This document shows, in pieces, positions 28,421-57,379 of a stretch of DNA of 64,000 bases (its first letter is position 1; each line of letters begins with the position of its first letter). A program made the position numbers and the translations under genes. The notes under the pieces were generated by a model. That model searched no databases. It saw nothing but the letters and a program-made list of their open reading frames with translations, and was not told where the DNA came from. Source of the stretch: Acidobacteriota bacterium (lineage in GTDB: Bacteria; Acidobacteriota; Vicinamibacteria; Vicinamibacterales; 2-12-FULL-66-21); the NCBI GenBank assembly GCA_003222675.1, contig QHWT01000054.1, positions 57,005 through 121,004 on the forward strand, written 5' to 3'.

Positions 28421-31400
28421 ATGAGAGTGCAGCAACCGTTCACATGCCGGCGTGGCGCGCGTTCGAAGCCGCTGGCGATCCTTGCGTTGATCGCCATGGT
28501 CGCGTCGCCGGTCGGTCGTCCCATGTTCACGACGACCGTTCACGCGCAAACGCAGGTGGCCCCGGTCGGCAACGGCTTCTTTATCAACGACGACGACCTG
28601 CGGTTCATCTTCAAACAGATCCAGGTCTCGCAGGCCAATGCGGCCGGCGGAGCGCTTCTCGGGCCCGGGCCAAACCAGGTCAACTCGCAGGCCGCGCCCA
28701 ACGGCAATCCACAGCTCCCGATGGGCTTGCGAACAGTCGACGGGTCGTACAACAACCTGGTGCAGATTCCCGACCAGCACATGTTCGGCGCCGCGGACCT
28801 GGTCTTCCCGCGGAAGACGACCCCCGTGTTCCGCGATGCGGAGCCCTTGCCGTTCGATCCTGACGGCGCCGGTCCGCAGGCAGCGGGTCAGCCGACGTCG
28901 TATACGCAGAAGGCCGGATTCGTCGCCGACTCGCAGCCGCGCCTGATCAGCAACCTGATCGTCGATCAATCCGCGGCGAACCCGGCGGCCGCCGCAGCAG
29001 CGGCGAACCCGTGCGGCTCGGGTGGGTTCGTGTGCTCGCCGGCTGCACCTCCCGATCCGGATTCCGGCGCGCTGTTCATTCCGAACATCACGCCGAATTT
29101 CGGTCTCTCAGCGCCGTTCAACCTGATGTTCACCTTCTTCGGCCAGTTCTTCGATCACGGGCTCGATCTCGTGACGAAGGGCGGCGGCACGGTGATCATC
29201 CCGCTGCAGCCTGACGACCCTCTGTTCGTTCCGGGCGGCTCGACCAACTTCATGGTCATGGCGCGCGCCACGAATCAGCCCGGTCCGGACGGCATTCTCG
29301 GGACGGCTGACGACATTCAAGACGGGACCAACACCACGACGCCGTGGGTCGATCAGAACCAGACCTACACGTCGCATCCGTCGCACCAGGTGTTCCTGCG
29401 CGAGTACGCGATGAACGCGCAGGGCAAGCCGGTTCAGACGGGCAAAGTGCTCGACGGCGGATTCTGCGCGCCGCGCGCGACGGGAATCCCCGGCGACAAC
29501 ATCTGCGATATCGGAAACTGGGGCGAGGTCAAGGCGCAGGCAGCCACCAAACTCGGCATCCAGCTGGTCGACCAGGATATCTTCGACTGCCCGCTGCTGC
29601 TGACGGATCCGTACGGCCATTTCAAACCAGGTCCGAACGGGTTCCCGCAGCTCGTGCTGCCCAATGGCGTTCTGGTCGAGGGCAATCCCGCCGCAAACGG
29701 CGGCGCCGGCGTGCTCATCCCGGCGAAGGCCTTCAGGACCGGCCACGCGTTCCTCAACGACATCGCGCACAACGCGGTGCCGAGCCCGGGTCTGGTGCCC
29801 GACGCCGACACCACAATCTGCGACTTCCGCACGTGCACGCAGCCGCCGGGAACGTATGACGACGAACTGCTCGCCCGTCACTTCGTCACCGGAGACGGCC
29901 GCGGCAACGAGAACATCGCGCTGACGATGGTTCACCAGATTTTCCACGCCGAGCACAACCGGCTGGTGCACTACATCGATCAGCAGATCAACGCGCTGCT
30001 GACGCCGGCGGAAATCGCCGCGTGGCACGCAGTGGACGGGCCGTCCGGCTGGGATTACGGCGAGCGTCTGTTCCAGGCGGCGCGGTTCGGCACCGAAATG
30101 CAATACCAGCACCTCGTGTTCGAGGAGTTCGCCCGCAAGATGCAGCCGTTGATCAATCCGTTCCTCGGCGGCATCACGTCGATCAACCCGGCGATCTCCG
30201 CCGAGTTCGCGCATACGGTCTATCGCCTCGGGCACTCAATGCTGCCCGAACGGGTGGCCCGGATCAATGCCGACGGGTCGAACAACGACCTCAGGCTGCT
30301 CAACGCGTTCCTCAACCCTCCGGCGTTCAACGACGGCGGGACGGCCGGGCCCCTGACCGCTGACAAAGCCGCGGGCGCGATCATTCGCGGCCTGGTCCTG
30401 CAGGTCGGCAACGAGCTGGATGAATTCGTGACCTCCTCGGTGCGGAACTCGCTCCTCGGTCTCCCGCTGGACCTGCCGGCGATCAACATCGCGCGAGGGC
30501 GCAGCGAAGGGATCCCGCCGCTCAACGAGGTGCGCCGGCAGCTCTTCCAACAGACGAAGGACGCGTCCCTGACTCCGTACGCGAACTGGTTCGAGTTGGG
30601 ATTGCAGCTGAGACACGTCGAATCCCTGGCGAACTTCGTTGCGGCCTACGGCACGGACCCGACGATTACGAGTGCGACGACCGTGACGGCAAAACGCGCC
30701 GCGGCGCAGGCGTTGGTGTTGGCCAACGGACCGTTCATGTTCGCACCCGCGGCGACCAGCGGCCTCAACACCGTGGACTTCTGGGTCGGCGGTCTCGCCG
30801 AGAAACAGGCGGTGTTCGGCGGTCTGCTCGGATCGACGTTCAACTACATCTTCGAGCACCAGCTGGAAGACCTGCAGAACGGCGACCGGTTCTACTACCT
30901 CCAGCGCACCGACGGCCTGAACTTCAGGTTCCAGCTCGAAGGCAACTCGTTTGCCGAGCTGTGCCGCCGCAACACGGACCTCGGTGCCTCGATGGCCAAA
31001 ATCTTCGAGACGGCCGATTTCAACTTCGACGCGGCCACCCTCACGGGCACCGCGACGATCCCGCTCGCCGACAACACATCGCTAATCACGTTGGCCGACG
31101 GAACGAAGCTGTTCTTCGACCCGCTGCACAAAGGCAAGAACGTCATGTTCAATGGCGGCCCCGGCGACGACCGCTTCCAGGGTGACGTCGGTGACGACAC
31201 CATGTATGGCAACGGCGGCAACGATCGGCTGACCGGCGGTGAAGGCGACGACGAGCTGGTCGGCGGCGATGGAGACGACATCCTCTTCGGCGGCCCCGGC
31301 AACGATATCCTCAAGGGCGGCCCCGGCAACGACGCGCTGAGCACTGGACCAGGGTTCGGCGGCGACATCGCGATCGGCGGCGAGGGGGACGACTTCATGC

Positions 31401-33817
31401 TCGGCGGCGACGACGGCGTCGAGTACTTCGCCGGCGGCGGCGACGACATCATCGTCGACGGCGCGCAGCGCGCTGAGGGCATGTTCGGCGGCCCTGGCGA
31501 CGACTGGATCTACGACGGTGACGGACACGACGGCGGCATCTTCGGCGATGACGGCAACGTGTTCGACCTGCTCGCCGGTCTCAATCAGGTGGGCGGCGAC
31601 GACGTCGAAGGTGGCGGTCCCGGACAGGACAACCACTTCGGCGAAGGCGGCGACGACATCTTCCTGATGTCCGAAGGCTCCAACAAGTTCTTCGGCGATT
31701 ACGGGTTCGATATGGTCACGCAGCGGGGATGGCCGGCGCCAGGGCAGATCGATTTGAGCTTCCTGCCTTTGCCCGGAGTCATCCTGAACTTCAACAATCT
31801 GAGCAACATGTACCGGTTCGTCGACGGTGCGTCAGGATGGGATTTGGACGATCACATCGTCGGCGACGACAACGTGTTCGATCCGGCGGCGCCAGTCGAG
31901 ATCCAGCTGCAGCCCCAGATGGCGCTGACGGAGGAATACGCTGCCAAGGTCGCGGGACTCCGGGACCTGATCGTCAGCGGCTTCGGGGTGACGCCGACAG
32001 ATGCGCCGGTGAACTTTTCCACGAACTCCGGTGGTGAGCCGGGCATTGTGGCCTATACCAGGCACATTCTGTGGATCGGCGGCAACCTCCTCCTCGGCGG
32101 TCTCGGCAACGATACGATCGAGGGCCGCGGCGGCGACGACCTGATCGACGGTGACTCGTGGCTCAACGTCCAGCTCCGCGCGGTGCTCAATGACGGCACC
32201 GTGAAGCTGGTCGACGACCCGCGCCTCCTCGTTGACGACGTGTTTGCTGATCCCCAGCGCCTGAACCCGGGCCACATCAGCATCGTGCGCAGCATCGTGC
32301 AACCGGCCAACGTTCCGCCACCCGATTGCGGAGCCCCGGCACCACTGAACTGCGACACGGCTGTGTTCTCGGGTCCGCTTGCCGACTACTCGATTCAGCT
32401 GAATGCAAACGGCACGGTGACGGTGATTCACGTCGCCGGCAAGGGGAACTTCAAGGCTCCGACCAACGACGGCACCGACACCCTCCGGAACATTGAGCAG
32501 CTCAAGTTCTCGGATGTGACGATCCCGGCACCGAGGCCGGCGACCAACGTCGTGCCGAACGTCATCGGGCTGACGCCGGCTGCGGCGCAGGCTGCGATCG
32601 TCGCGGCCGGGTTGAGGGTCGGAGCGACCACCACCGGCAGGGTCCTGCCCGCGAATCCCGTCGCGATCGGGCTCATCGCGAGCCAGAGCCCGTTGGGCGG
32701 GACCAAGGTGGTGGCAGGGGCCGCCGTGAATATCGTCACCTCGACCGGCCTCGAGACGCCGAACGTGGTCGGCTTGCCGTATCCGGGCAACCTGACGACC
32801 GGCGCCGTGCACAACCTCACCGAATTCGCACTGGTCATCGGGACCGTCACCAACCAGTTCAGCACCACGGTCCCTGCGGGTCTGGTCATCAGCCAGGATC
32901 CGGTGGCGGGTACGGGCGTCAACGCGGGCACCGCAGTGAACCTGGTGGTGTCGTCAGGGCCGCCGCTCGTTGCAGTGCCGAACGTCGTCGGCCTGACGCA
33001 GGCGGCAGCGACAACGGCGCTCACGAACGCAGGCCTCACTGTCGGCTTCGTGGGAAGCGCGAGCAGCGAAACGGTAGCGGCCGGCAGCGTGATCAGCCAG
33101 ACTCCGACGAGCCCTGGCACCGCGCCGCAAGGGAGCGCCGTTGCGCTGGTCGTCTCGACTGGAACTGCGGGTCCGGCGATCACCGTGACAGCCAAGCGGA
33201 ACGCCGGTTTGCCGAACCTGACGGTCACGAGCCCGGCGTTTGCTCCGGGCGCCAACACGTTGTTGGTGGCGTTGGTCTCGGCGGACGCGCCGGTCGACGG
33301 CGTGAACACGATCGTGAACGGCATCAACAACACCGGTACCGCGTTGACGTGGACGAGAGCCGTCCGCTCGAACGCGCAACTGGGCACGGCGGAAATCTGG
33401 TGGGCGTTTACGACGCCGGCACACGCCAGCATGACCGTCACTGCCGTCATGAACAACTCGGAAACGGCGTCGCTGACGGTGATGGGATTCACCGGAGCAG
33501 TGCCGACACTCGCCGGCGCCGCGAGCCTCGCGGCAAGCGCTGCGGCTGGCGCACCGAACGGGACGATCGTGACCACGGCTGCCAACTCGCTGGTTGTCGG
33601 CGTCGGCACGGATTGGGATATGGCTCGCACCATGAAGCCGGCGGCAGGCCAGATCTTGGTCAACTCGTTCAACACGCCGAACGGCGATACGTACTGGGTG
33701 CAACGGACGTCGCCGCCCGTTGCGGCGACCGGTACCAGCATCACGATCCGCGACAGCTACGGCACGTTAATGCCTGACCGCTGGAACCTGGCGTTGATCG
33801 AAATCCGGAAGCAGTAG
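28421..33817 (+). CDS. animal-type heme peroxidase with RTX and PASTA repeats, secreted
   Basis: A 1798-residue exported multidomain protein. The ATG at 28421 has GGAGG five bases upstream; a signal peptide ends about residue 43. The peroxidase domain (about 130-860) keeps the animal heme peroxidase residues: Asp245-His246 (FFDHGLD; distal His and heme-linked Asp), Arg494 and Glu497 (GRGNE; catalytic Arg and heme-linked Glu), EHNR at 511-514, and proximal His605 (YRLGHSMLP). Calcium-binding GGxGxDxxx repeats follow (about 910-1060 and near 1230), then three PASTA repeats (about 1376-1582, each with PNVVGL-like strands) and a beta-rich C-terminal domain ending in ALIEIRKQ. It should oxidise halides or phenolics outside the cell; RTX repeats suggest calcium-dependent folding after export. 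Product and target are inferred. Confidence 0.88.
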   Translation: MRVQQPFTCRRGARSKPLAILALIAMVASPVGRPMFTTTVHAQTQVAPVGNGFFINDDDLRFIFKQIQVSQANAAGGALLGPGPNQVNSQAAPNGNPQLPMGLRTVDGSYNNLVQIPDQHMFGAADLVFPRKTTPVFRDAEPLPFDPDGAGPQAAGQPTSYTQKAGFVADSQPRLISNLIVDQSAANPAAAAAAANPCGSGGFVCSPAAPPDPDSGALFIPNITPNFGLSAPFNLMFTFFGQFFDHGLDLVTKGGGTVIIPLQPDDPLFVPGGSTNFMVMARATNQPGPDGILGTADDIQDGTNTTTPWVDQNQTYTSHPSHQVFLREYAMNAQGKPVQTGKVLDGGFCAPRATGIPGDNICDIGNWGEVKAQAATKLGIQLVDQDIFDCPLLLTDPYGHFKPGPNGFPQLVLPNGVLVEGNPAANGGAGVLIPAKAFRTGHAFLNDIAHNAVPSPGLVPDADTTICDFRTCTQPPGTYDDELLARHFVTGDGRGNENIALTMVHQIFHAEHNRLVHYIDQQINALLTPAEIAAWHAVDGPSGWDYGERLFQAARFGTEMQYQHLVFEEFARKMQPLINPFLGGITSINPAISAEFAHTVYRLGHSMLPERVARINADGSNNDLRLLNAFLNPPAFNDGGTAGPLTADKAAGAIIRGLVLQVGNELDEFVTSSVRNSLLGLPLDLPAINIARGRSEGIPPLNEVRRQLFQQTKDASLTPYANWFELGLQLRHVESLANFVAAYGTDPTITSATTVTAKRAAAQALVLANGPFMFAPAATSGLNTVDFWVGGLAEKQAVFGGLLGSTFNYIFEHQLEDLQNGDRFYYLQRTDGLNFRFQLEGNSFAELCRRNTDLGASMAKIFETADFNFDAATLTGTATIPLADNTSLITLADGTKLFFDPLHKGKNVMFNGGPGDDRFQGDVGDDTMYGNGGNDRLTGGEGDDELVGGDGDDILFGGPGNDILKGGPGNDALSTGPGFGGDIAIGGEGDDFMLGGDDGVEYFAGGGDDIIVDGAQRAEGMFGGPGDDWIYDGDGHDGGIFGDDGNVFDLLAGLNQVGGDDVEGGGPGQDNHFGEGGDDIFLMSEGSNKFFGDYGFDMVTQRGWPAPGQIDLSFLPLPGVILNFNNLSNMYRFVDGASGWDLDDHIVGDDNVFDPAAPVEIQLQPQMALTEEYAAKVAGLRDLIVSGFGVTPTDAPVNFSTNSGGEPGIVAYTRHILWIGGNLLLGGLGNDTIEGRGGDDLIDGDSWLNVQLRAVLNDGTVKLVDDPRLLVDDVFADPQRLNPGHISIVRSIVQPANVPPPDCGAPAPLNCDTAVFSGPLADYSIQLNANGTVTVIHVAGKGNFKAPTNDGTDTLRNIEQLKFSDVTIPAPRPATNVVPNVIGLTPAAAQAAIVAAGLRVGATTTGRVLPANPVAIGLIASQSPLGGTKVVAGAAVNIVTSTGLETPNVVGLPYPGNLTTGAVHNLTEFALVIGTVTNQFSTTVPAGLVISQDPVAGTGVNAGTAVNLVVSSGPPLVAVPNVVGLTQAAATTALTNAGLTVGFVGSASSETVAAGSVISQTPTSPGTAPQGSAVALVVSTGTAGPAITVTAKRNAGLPNLTVTSPAFAPGANTLLVALVSADAPVDGVNTIVNGINNTGTALTWTRAVRSNAQLGTAEIWWAFTTPAHASMTVTAVMNNSETASLTVMGFTGAVPTLAGAASLAASAAAGAPNGTIVTTAANSLVVGVGTDWDMARTMKPAAGQILVNSFNTPNGDTYWVQRTSPPVAATGTSITIRDSYGTLMPDRWNLALIEIRKQ

Positions 33818-46824: not shown

Positions 46825-47281
46825 ATGGAACTGCTCAAGACGCACATTCGCCACGTGCCGGACTTTCCCAAGCCGGGCATTCTCTTTTACGACGTGACCA
46901 CGCTGTTGAAGGACCCACAAGGATTCAAGCTCGCTATCGACAGCATGTCGGAACCGTACCGCGGATCCGGTGTGACGCTCGTCGTCGGAATTGAAAGCCG
47001 CGGGTTCATCCTGGGATCTGCCGTCGCCGATCGGATTGGCGCAGGCTTCGTTCCGGTGCGGAAGCTCGGGAAGCTGCCCGCACAGACGGTTCGCGCAAGT
47101 TACGATCTCGAATACGGCAGCGACAGCCTCGAAATGCACCGCGACGCCATCGAGAAGGGACAGAAAGTGCTGATCGTCGACGACCTGCTCGCAACCGGTC
47201 ACGTTCCTGATCGAGCTGGTGGAGTTGAACGGCCGCGCGAAGCTCCAGGGCGAGAAGGTCCGGGCGGTGCTGCAGTACTGA
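46825..47281 (+). pseudogene. apt: adenine phosphoribosyltransferase with internal deletion
   Basis: The reading from 46825 is a normal Apt start: [39 protein letters not shown] and [11 protein letters not shown] of the PRPP loop, through about residue 126. At 47202 the frame changes: after LLATG the sequence switches in the +1 frame to [20 protein letters not shown], ending at the TGA at 47279-47281, the usual Apt C-terminus. About 20 residues that normally follow LLATGGT are missing. As it stands, translation runs on out of frame to 47349. The deletion removes the core of the PRPP-binding region, so the product should be inactive unless the sequence is in error. Confidence 0.72.
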
Positions 47282-47370
47282 GTCGCCAGTTGCCAGTTGC
47301 CAGTTCACGCTGGCGTAGGGCGCATCGACATTGGAAACTGGTAACTTGAAACTGGCAACTGGTAACTTCG
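47282..47370. repeat. CCAGTTG/CAACTGG word-like repeats before the tRNA
   Basis: CGCCAGTTGCCAGTTGCCAG near 47283 and, inverted, AACTGGTAACTTGAAACTGG and CAACTGGTAACTTCG up to 47370 flank a short centre. A matching block, ACTGGCAACCGGCAACTGGC and GGTAACTGAC, lies at 47478-47518 just after the tRNA and runs up to the next start codon. Confidence 0.65.
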
Positions 47371-47375
47371 TTTTG

Positions 47376-47452
47376 GCGCCCGTAGCTCAGCAGGATAGAG
47401 CATCGGTTTCCTAAACCGGGGGTCGCAGGTTCGAGACCTGCCGGGCGCGCCA
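47376..47452 (+). tRNA. tRNA-Arg(CCT)
   Basis: A complete cloverleaf of 77 bases. Acceptor GCGCCCG pairs with CGGGCGC; D-arm GCTC/GAGC; anticodon arm TCGGT/ACCGG with loop TTCCTAA and anticodon CCT (47410-47412); T-arm GCAGG-TTCGAGA-CCTGC; discriminator G and encoded CCA. Reads AGG. It lies between two word-repeat blocks. Confidence 0.95.
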
Positions 47453-47518
47453 CGTTCTTGATCGCACACTTGCCGCGCCAACTGACTGGCAACCGGCAAC
47501 TGGCAACTGGTAACTGAC

Positions 47519-54487: not shown

Positions 54488-57379
54488 CTAGAACGCGCGG
54501 CCGATGCGGCCGAAGAACGCGGCGCGTGAGCGATCCCCGATCACATCGTGCGTCCACGCGGCGCCGCCGGCGAGGGTCACGGGGAGATAGTGACCGAGCA
54601 CGATGTCGAGCGAGAGCTCGCCGCCGATCGAGGTGCGAAGATCTGAGAGGCGAAACGTACGGTTCCACGCGTCGCCCGCGTCGACAAAGCCGGCGCCGTG
54701 AATGGCGCGAAAGAACATCGGCCAGTTGCCGATGCCGCGCTGGGGGCGCGCCAGCGGCACCCGCACGTCGATATTCGCGACCGTCGCGCGAGAACCGACC
54801 AGATCGTCAGCAGCGAAGCCGCGCAGCAGGCCGATCGTGTCCCGGCCGAAATCGAATGCCGCGACCGCCGGACCGGGACCGCCGGCGGCGAACCGGCGCC
54901 GCATACGCGGGTCGCCCCACGCACTCGCAAAGGCGACGCGGCCTGCCACGACGACGTGCCCGCTCGTCACGCGCTGAAAGCCCCGCAGGTCGACGATCGT
55001 CGCGCCGCCGTCGGCGTCCGATCCGAACGCCGCGCGGGTCATCTCTGCGGCCGTTTCGATCCGAACACCTTCCTCGGCACTGATCGAATAGCCGTAGGCG
55101 CGGCGGCTGTCGTGGATCCATCCGCCACGAAACGATCGACGTCGCTGTTCCGACGGTAGCGTGCACGGCTCGTCACAATGGAACGTGTCGTTATCAGCCT
55201 CGAACGCGCCAAGCCACGTTTCGGTCCAGCGGATATGCCGAGACGCCAGCAGCGCGCCCGCCGTCATCTCGCGCGATCGCGCCAGACCACCGCGGAAAGG
55301 ATCCGTGTCATCCGAGTAGCTCGCGAACAGCGTCGGGGCCCATCGATCGTACGCGTACGCCGCGTGCCAGTCCGGGCGCGCGCGGTTCGCCCACGCGGCA
55401 TCGACTCCGTATGCATGACGGCCGAGCACATCGCTCATCGCAGTGCCGGCGCCCACGAGCAGCTCGTCGCTGTCGGTGTCGACGATTGGCGTCCAATAGG
55501 TCGGGACGAGCGTGCGCCAGGGACGGTAAGGCCTATCTTCCGCCTGAAGGCGGAAGCCACCAGATTGTGTTCCCGTGCCGTCCGGCTCTTTGGGATTTCC
55601 CGTGGCTTCCGCCGCTCTCCGATTTCCCGTGGCTTCCGCCTTCAGGCGGAAGTCAGGATCCGGAGTGAGAACCGCTCGATCAAACGGCACCGAGAACAGA
55701 TCGTATCCGTCCGGCGTGTAACCGACATAGAACAGCGACCGTCCGTCGGGCGAAAGCTCGGGCTGCTGCGCGCCGCCGGCGGTGTCCGTCACGCGCGACA
55801 CCACGCCGCTGGCCACGTCAACTGCGAACACGTCGAACGGCTGATCCCCGACATCGGCGGAAAAAAGTACCATCGCGCCGTCCGCGCTCCACGAAGGCGT
55901 CACAAGGCGCGCGTGGCGGCGAGTCACCAGCACGCGCGTTTCGGCGGATGCGACGTCGATGACGACGAGCTCGAACCCGGTCCGGCGGATCCGTCGCTCG
56001 GCGACGAGATGCCGTCCGTCAGGAGACCATCGGGGCCGTGAATAGTCGGACCCCTCGTCGGACACGAGAACGCGCGGAGCGGATACACGCGGCGGATCGA
56101 AGTCGCTGATCGCGATCGCACGCCGGTCCCTCATCTGTATGCTGCAGGCGAGCCGTCGGCCGTCCGCTGACAAATCCGGATCGCCGGCACGCGTCTGGTG
56201 GGTGAGCCGGTGCACGGTGCCGCCCGCCATTTTTACCGCGTAGAGATCCGAAAGCAGCCCCACCGAGCGCACGCGCTCGAGTTGATCGAACACGATCCAG
56301 CCGCCGCCGACCGTCGTGGTATTGCCGAGGACCCGCCAGGCGAGTCGCACGGGCGTGCCGTTCGACGCGAGGCGCATCAACGCCGGGAAGCCATCCGCAT
56401 TGGAGATCGAGTAATAGAGCGCGCCGTCGGCGGCGACGCGGAGTGCGCCAACGCTAAACCCGTAATGCGTGAGCCGTCTGGCCGCCAGATCCGTCGCGTG
56501 CGCCGCCCGAGCGTCACTCTCGCGAGCCTCGCGGAACTCCTTCCACAGCGTCCCCACGGATTCCCCGAACACGCGGCGGAACGCGCCCGTTCCGAAGTAG
56601 GGAACACGGCCGGACGTGGCGTCGGCCAGCGTGGTGAGCTTCTCGGCGCCGAAGCGATCGGCCAGATATTGATGGAAGTACCCGCCGTAGGCGTACGGCG
56701 CGTTGCCGGAGGGCCATCGATCGAGACCGCCGGCGGCGCGATCCATCGGCTCGAATCGATGGTGTGCGGCCGCGACGTCGACGATCGCGCGAAAATCTCC
56801 CGCGGGAATCCGCCCCTCGCCCGTCATGCGGCTCTCCTCGAACGTCGCAATCCCCTCAATCTGCCAGATCGGAAGAAAGGCGTTCGGAAAGACAATGGGA
56901 ACGCGGCCGAACACACGTCGGAAGCCTTCAATCCACCCGCGCGTCCGATCGAGGTGCAGGATGTGCGTGTACTCGTGCGTGAAGACCAGCTCGAGCCAGT
57001 CAATGGTGTTGCCGATCAGCGTTTCGCCGGCGGGTGGCACCGCGGTGATCTCGATCGCATCATACGGAAACGGCGTCGCCGAGCCGTTCGAGAGATCCGT
57101 CTGATCGACGAGGATCACCTGCACGCGGCCAGCTGGGACGCCAAACACCGGCGCAAATCGCGACCGCACCTGTTCGGCGATCGTCGCCAGGCGCCGCGCC
57201 AGCTGCTGTTCACCCTGGTGAGCGTAAATGTCGAAGTGCGGCGTGCTGAGCGTTCGGAACCGGAGCCGCCAGTCGTAGCGCGTGTTCGCGTCCGCGTGAG
57301 CTGCGGCGGCAATCAGCAGCGCTGCGAGGATCGCCGCCCGGTCAATGAGCCGGTGACGAGGGCGCCTGGCGATAGACAT
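54488..57379 (-). CDS. secreted MA-type metallopeptidase with TolB-like propeller and C-terminal barrel
   Basis: A 963-residue exported protein. A signal peptide (AAILAALLIAAAAHADA) is followed by a gluzincin-type peptidase domain: HEYTH at 135-139 and the helix WQIEGIA with Glu175 as third ligand. A TolB-like beta-propeller (about 290-560) has PDLSADGRRLACS, SRPRWSPDGRHLVAE and QPELSPDGRSLFY blades. A C-terminal outer-membrane barrel of about 330 residues ends FGRIGRAF. Between propeller and barrel sits a palindromic-repeat-encoded insert (residues about 573-615). The ATG at 57379 overlaps the next gene by 38 bases and has no clear ribosome site. Peptidase activity on periplasmic or surface substrates is inferred. 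Confidence 0.8.
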   Translation of the reverse strand: MSIARRPRHRLIDRAAILAALLIAAAAHADANTRYDWRLRFRTLSTPHFDIYAHQGEQQLARRLATIAEQVRSRFAPVFGVPAGRVQVILVDQTDLSNGSATPFPYDAIEITAVPPAGETLIGNTIDWLELVFTHEYTHILHLDRTRGWIEGFRRVFGRVPIVFPNAFLPIWQIEGIATFEESRMTGEGRIPAGDFRAIVDVAAAHHRFEPMDRAAGGLDRWPSGNAPYAYGGYFHQYLADRFGAEKLTTLADATSGRVPYFGTGAFRRVFGESVGTLWKEFREARESDARAAHATDLAARRLTHYGFSVGALRVAADGALYYSISNADGFPALMRLASNGTPVRLAWRVLGNTTTVGGGWIVFDQLERVRSVGLLSDLYAVKMAGGTVHRLTHQTRAGDPDLSADGRRLACSIQMRDRRAIAISDFDPPRVSAPRVLVSDEGSDYSRPRWSPDGRHLVAERRIRRTGFELVVIDVASAETRVLVTRRHARLVTPSWSADGAMVLFSADVGDQPFDVFAVDVASGVVSRVTDTAGGAQQPELSPDGRSLFYVGYTPDGYDLFSVPFDRAVLTPDPDFRLKAEATGNRRAAEATGNPKEPDGTGTQSGGFRLQAEDRPYRPWRTLVPTYWTPIVDTDSDELLVGAGTAMSDVLGRHAYGVDAAWANRARPDWHAAYAYDRWAPTLFASYSDDTDPFRGGLARSREMTAGALLASRHIRWTETWLGAFEADNDTFHCDEPCTLPSEQRRRSFRGGWIHDSRRAYGYSISAEEGVRIETAAEMTRAAFGSDADGGATIVDLRGFQRVTSGHVVVAGRVAFASAWGDPRMRRRFAAGGPGPAVAAFDFGRDTIGLLRGFAADDLVGSRATVANIDVRVPLARPQRGIGNWPMFFRAIHGAGFVDAGDAWNRTFRLSDLRTSIGGELSLDIVLGHYLPVTLAGGAAWTHDVIGDRSRAAFFGRIGRAF
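55534..55660. repeat. palindromic repeat element inserted in frame within the peptidase gene
   Basis: Two palindromes, CTTCCGCCTGAAGGCGGAAG (55537-55556) and CTTCCGCCTTCAGGCGGAAG (55633-55652), bracket a block holding a 20-base direct repeat (GATTTCCCGTGGCTTCCGCC at 55594-55613 and 55621-55640, period 27). On the minus strand it encodes FRLKAEATGN, AEATGN and FRLQAE in frame with the host gene. Confidence 0.75.

Follow-up and report, generated by a model that had tools for sequence, protein, structure and literature searches.

REPs are frequently associated with RAYT genes, which encode Y1 HUH transposases, but this association is not universal, and two inverted REPs lying close together form the doublets known as REPINs or BIMEs. 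A canonical REP is a hairpin whose stem measures 7-20 and whose loop measures 2-5 nt, with the tetranucleotide GT[AG]G at its 5' foot (PMC6006769). The majority of the GTAG-20 elements of O. terrae carry GTGG (Di Nocera et al. 2013, PMC3733652), and according to the same study, REP families do not obviously correlate with transposase genes. It also describes intragenic REPs, including in uvrA, dimers coding for 20-30 aa, and REPs that occupy roughly the same site in related species, such as a recB site shared by two Xanthomonas species (PMC3733652). Rickettsia palindromic elements (RPEs) appear there at second hand as palindromic repeats that lie in frame in many protein genes (cited in PMC3733652). 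Since intragenic REPs have already been published, the repeats described below form a family that is new but belongs to an already described kind.

Against this background, we interpret a palindromic block within a peptidase-like gene of the window (the whole stretch of 64,000 nt analysed here) as a doublet of inverted units from a GTGG-tagged family of REPs, one that has expanded in a gp6-type group of Acidobacteriota, and we assign this reading a probability of roughly 0.88. We favour it because the copies are dispersed and in excess between genes, because the unit is conserved and shows a compensatory stem change, because copies are present or absent at orthologous sites, and because those within genes reside there in frame.

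The features of the block are collected in Table 1. Its two exact 20-base palindromes, CTTCCGCCTGAAGGCGGAAG at 55537-55556 and CTTCCGCCTTCAGGCGGAAG at 55633-55652, are mutually inverted and belong to a 29-nt inverted repeat whose arms are 93% complementary; a palindrome search of the window allowing up to three mismatches gave two matches against 0.03 expected, and no shuffle gave two. Inside the block, a 27-nt direct repeat (55570-55596 and 55597-55623) is 74% identical between its copies. As RNA, the block has a folding energy of -76.4 kcal/mol (z = -6.9 against shuffles). The minus-strand reading frame stays open throughout the block, with the product DFRLKAEATGNRRAAEATGNPKEPDGTGTQSGGFRLQAED, and codon by codon the 27-nt repeats together with the end of unit 2 give AEATGNRRA / AEATGNPKE / PDGTGTQSG. 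Both the palindromes and the 27-base-period direct repeat noticed in the preliminary description are thus present where it placed them, in frame in a gene for a predicted secreted peptidase; what it took for a single element of about 127 bases is instead made up of two 24-nt units flanking a variable spacer.

Table 1. Features of the palindromic block and its host gene (positions within the window)
Feature	Position	Strand	Remarks
Predicted secreted metallopeptidase-like protein, 963 aa	54488..57379	-	Pfam PD40, translation, orthologues across the order
Complete inverted doublet	55532..55657	.	arms 55532-55560 and 55629-55657
REP unit 1, CTTCCGCCTGAAGGCGGAAG + CCAC tag	55537..55560	+	gene-strand peptide GGFRLQAED
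Spacer, 68 nt, tags face inward	55561..55628	.	largely decayed tandem tag-side half-units
27-nt direct repeat, two copies	55570..55623	-	period is a multiple of three
REP unit 2, plus-strand GTGG + CTTCCGCCTTCAGGCGGAAG	55629..55652	-	gene-strand peptide DFRLKAEAT

The suspicion that such palindromes are dispersed in this genome proved correct: the source genome (G000, 7.16 Mb) holds 121 of them at up to one mismatch, 72 being exact, against no match for a reversed-pattern control in the same genome. When tagged copies were searched for in 12 genomes of the bacterial family (CCAC tag, inner stem free, at most one mismatch), we found 149 in the source genome, 153 in G002, 101 in G011 and 0-6 in the remaining members. 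In a phylum-wide sample of 396 genomes, three contain the exact 20-mer. Among the matches listed in a scan of named genomes, nearly all fell into the Acidobacteria MAGs gp6 AA38, which is QHWR and matches G002 in its coordinates, and NC_groundwater_1406, which is JACQTH, a genome distinct from G011. At least four related genomes of uncultured Acidobacteriota thus carry the repeat family in abundance, and the remainder of the phylum lacks it almost completely. The part of the literature that was searched held no publication on this REP family, on the peptide FRLKAEA or on REPs of Vicinamibacter.

Most of the 72 exact palindromes of the source genome carry the GTGG tag. Units chosen for profiling by C[CT][AG]C yield the consensus CTTCCGSCTRAAGSCGGAAGCCACgaga (24-28 nt, aligned on the tag), that is, a conserved unit CTTCCGSCTRAAGSCGGAAGCCAC followed by a weak GAGA, with almost no conservation outside it. 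On the other strand, the tag GTGG marks the 5' foot of a stem-loop whose stem has 9 bp and whose loop has 2 nt (GTGG-CTTCCGSCTTYAGSCGGAAG), the loop varying between 2 and 4 nt within the family. Stem positions 6 and 13 form a C-G pair in 65 and a G-C pair in 8 of the 73 units of the source genome, and in other loci they do so in 109 and 25 of 134, with identical counts in both columns, which points to a compensatory change of the stem. About one third of the tagged units are paired in inverted orientation (24 of 73 in the source genome, 51 of 134 in other loci). Such pairing resembles that of REPINs or BIMEs; compared with these, the doublets here comprise a tag-inward arrangement, with spacers that vary between 12 and 78 nt in the source genome, and also a tag-outward one, with a 2-nt gap, in JACQTH. 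A hairpin with GT[AG]G at its foot, a high and dispersed copy number, a mainly extragenic position and many inverted pairs are marks of REPs, and all four are found here; the repeat unit is a REP of the GTAG/GTGG type.

The position of the units relative to genes was derived from a home-made self-trained gene caller applied to the fetched stretches, 83-87% of which are genic. Of 213 units, 152 are intergenic, which corresponds to an intergenic/genic density ratio of 12-16; as the loci were fetched for holding the element, the ratio is meaningful and the absolute number is not. The other 61 (about 29%) are genic according to the gene predictions, and 45 (21%) are strictly internal, with a distance of 15 aa or more to the start and of 40 aa or more to the end of the gene, and spread over 34 genes. 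In its common form, the unit has a stop (TGA or TAA) in one frame of six, and a rarer form with a TAAA loop has one more closed frame. The frame that is closed in the common form is used by 0 of the 61 genic units, and the remaining five frames are all used, giving peptides such as LPPEGGSH or LPPKGGSH, FRLKAEA, GFRLQAE, VASAFRRK and WLPPSGG. The idea of a mobile-looking palindromic family that is tolerated in coding DNA therefore stands, as the copies are dispersed and in frame in many real genes.

Several of these genes could be identified. JACQTH carries a doublet in PriA and another in enolase (here and for RimP, gene identities are from NCBIfam), each within a stretch 75 nt longer than in the QHWR orthologue, and a single unit with a tail in RimP, within a stretch 69 nt longer than in the source genome; all three are clean in-frame gains, and the enolase with the doublet is the only match in JACQTH (a partial genome of 3.1 Mb). 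In UvrA of the source genome, the unit lies in a loop whose length and sequence differ between relatives; the relatives are free of the unit, one of them having a longer loop without it. An acyl-CoA ligase-acyltransferase fusion contains intact units in the source genome and in G002, which belong to two genera; loop and frame are identical in both, and the same loop in G009, a third genus, contains a decayed unit with 3 mismatches in 24 positions, a level that within the window is reached only by the two true units. Some insertions thus look old and inherited and others lineage-specific, but the ligase units in the same loop may also have arisen by independent insertion. In fused phosphotransferase/aminotransferase-type genes of QHWR (L134) and JACQTH (L108), units occupy different sites.

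The window gene itself is less easily read. Pfam PD40 assigns a WD40-like propeller to its product, and the HEYTH motif and the N-terminal hydrophobic stretch in the translation suggest a secreted zinc peptidase. The block lies between the propeller and the C-terminal region, a putative barrel in the preliminary description, which had also proposed the orthologue comparison as a refuting test: distant orthologues do not keep the insert at protein level, the FRLKAEA peptide being found in none of 24 aligned orthologue loci (up to 72% identity; a few cover the linker partly), and a DNA search of the nine closest orthologues found the intact palindrome in none. On the other hand, a simple insertion of 127 bp does not fit, as the complete linkers of nearer relatives already measure mostly 50-67 aa, with unrelated sequence, against 68 aa in the window gene, which is 5 aa longer than that of the same-genus orthologue; one distant relative has 96 aa. 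The linker is hypervariable in this gene and its sequence unconserved among orthologues, and by this comparison the block is not simply added onto an otherwise conserved linker. Due to this hypervariability, the age and the exact boundaries of the insertion are uncertain, and the site cannot be read as an exact empty/filled pair. In the orthologue from G002 (L223, another genus), the best match to the unit in the whole gene (7 mismatches) falls on the corresponding place and frame of the linker, for which we estimate from the window background a chance of roughly 1%; a unit may therefore have been present here before the genera split. A candidate decayed unit in the same-genus orthologue was rejected (11 mismatches). 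The doublet now makes up most of the linker that joins the propeller to the C-terminal domain, and there is no evidence that it has a specific function.

In this context, it has to be considered whether the block is nothing more than a common domain linker of low complexity, encoded by DNA that is palindromic by chance. The similar length and equal variability of the orthologous linkers would agree with this; however, the 20-mer recurs 121 times in a genome in which the control gives none, mostly between genes, and neither the peptide nor the intact palindrome is shared by the orthologues compared, so that we consider this explanation highly improbable. It is the chance origin of the DNA that the genome-wide count refutes, whereas the role as a linker fits the REP explanation as well. 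Somewhat less improbable, though still unlikely, is a selected signal for protein binding or transcription termination that is not mobile and whose copies within genes are by-products. Its stable hairpin, the strong intergenic excess and the small number of intergenic copies between divergent genes (5 of 59 in the source genome) are what such a signal would lead one to expect, but published REPs are placed alike and placement therefore cannot separate the two. The absence of the unit from most close relatives, its presence or absence at orthologous sites, the interruption of housekeeping genes and the varying doublet spacers all speak for a REP family instead.

The preliminary description had compared the block with the Rickettsia elements, and residence in frame in many unrelated genes is indeed a behaviour shared with RPEs, without being proof of membership. 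The anatomy, however, does not support RPEs as the nearest kind and is that of a REP, with a GTGG tag, a 9-bp hairpin with a loop of 2-4 nt, inverted doublets and mostly intergenic copies. As a 24-nt tagged hairpin with a 20-nt core, in another lineage, the family is set apart from RPEs by description, and its assignment to the RPE type is the least probable of the alternatives. Compared with the known GTAG/GTGG REPs, the family differs in its new stem sequence, in its uncultured acidobacterial hosts, in that no cognate RAYT was found, and in the tandem arrays of its tag-side half-unit.

In the source genome, this half-unit recurs near units 13 times downstream and 3 times upstream (some of the 13 being overlapping matches), compared to about 0.7 recurrences expected for 73 units. 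In-frame half-unit repeats with periods of 21-27 nt occur in RimP, in the ligase and in the window gene; they likely arose through replication slippage at the foot of the hairpin. Besides, the tag-side half-unit, GGCGGAAGCCACGAAGGGGAGAGAA, forms an intergenic tandem array from 2992 of a QHWR locus (L133), and three loci of the source genome (L175, L200, L203) contain short tandem stretches coding for SDLGPR (TCGGACCTCGGACC-like) near REP units inside genes.

With respect to the mobilising enzyme, there was no Y1/HUH transposase near any copy examined. The source genome has two Y1_Tnp genes (L022, about 1075-2113; L029, 1262-2005), but a link to them was rejected, as each has its own flanking inverted repeats (about 69 nt; GGGGTCAGACCCC type), which are unrelated to the REP family. 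In G011, the unit does not lie near either of the two Y1_Tnp genes, and G002, with its 153 copies, gave no match to Y1_Tnp at E values as high as 10. A Y1 profile that we built gave no match in the element-bearing loci, a result weakened by the fact that two or more of the 17 sequences in the profile (L018 and L028 among them) came from the wrong strand. The transposase of the family may act in trans, be missing or have been lost in assembly gaps.

In our reading as a REP family, a tyrosine HUH nuclease working in trans would have spread the unit in the form of single-stranded hairpin DNA, following the model put forward for REPs. Most copies that land in genes would be purged, and those surviving would be the ones with a net length that is a multiple of three, a stop-free frame and a site in a loop or linker that tolerates them. 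Once inserted, the unit would tend to gain tandem copies of its tag-side half, each step adding about 21-27 nt, and the insert would decay until it resembles any other linker. A more far-reaching proposal, which we consider possible but rather doubtful, is that a REP family without its own RAYT and with five of six frames open in its common sequence repeatedly provides housekeeping proteins with new linker peptides (LPPEGGSH, FRLKAEAT, ASAFRRK), grows at its site by in-frame tandem duplication of half-units and is then domesticated or decays.

These data extend protein-coding REPs to a major uncultured lineage of soil and groundwater, in which intact copies stand beside decayed ones, and enolase, PriA, RimP and UvrA are among the enzymes that offer natural experiments on the conversion of a mobile hairpin into part of a protein. 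They also raise the question of how a REP family is moved in genomes in which no RAYT can be found. Apart from the REP units, the window contains direct and inverted repeats built on AACTGGTAACTTGAAACTGGCAACTGG (47281-47515) and, within the gene at 28421-33817, six imperfect 29-nt repeats (31257-32146) that are rich in GGCGGCGACGAC and resemble glycine-aspartate repeats of the RTX type.
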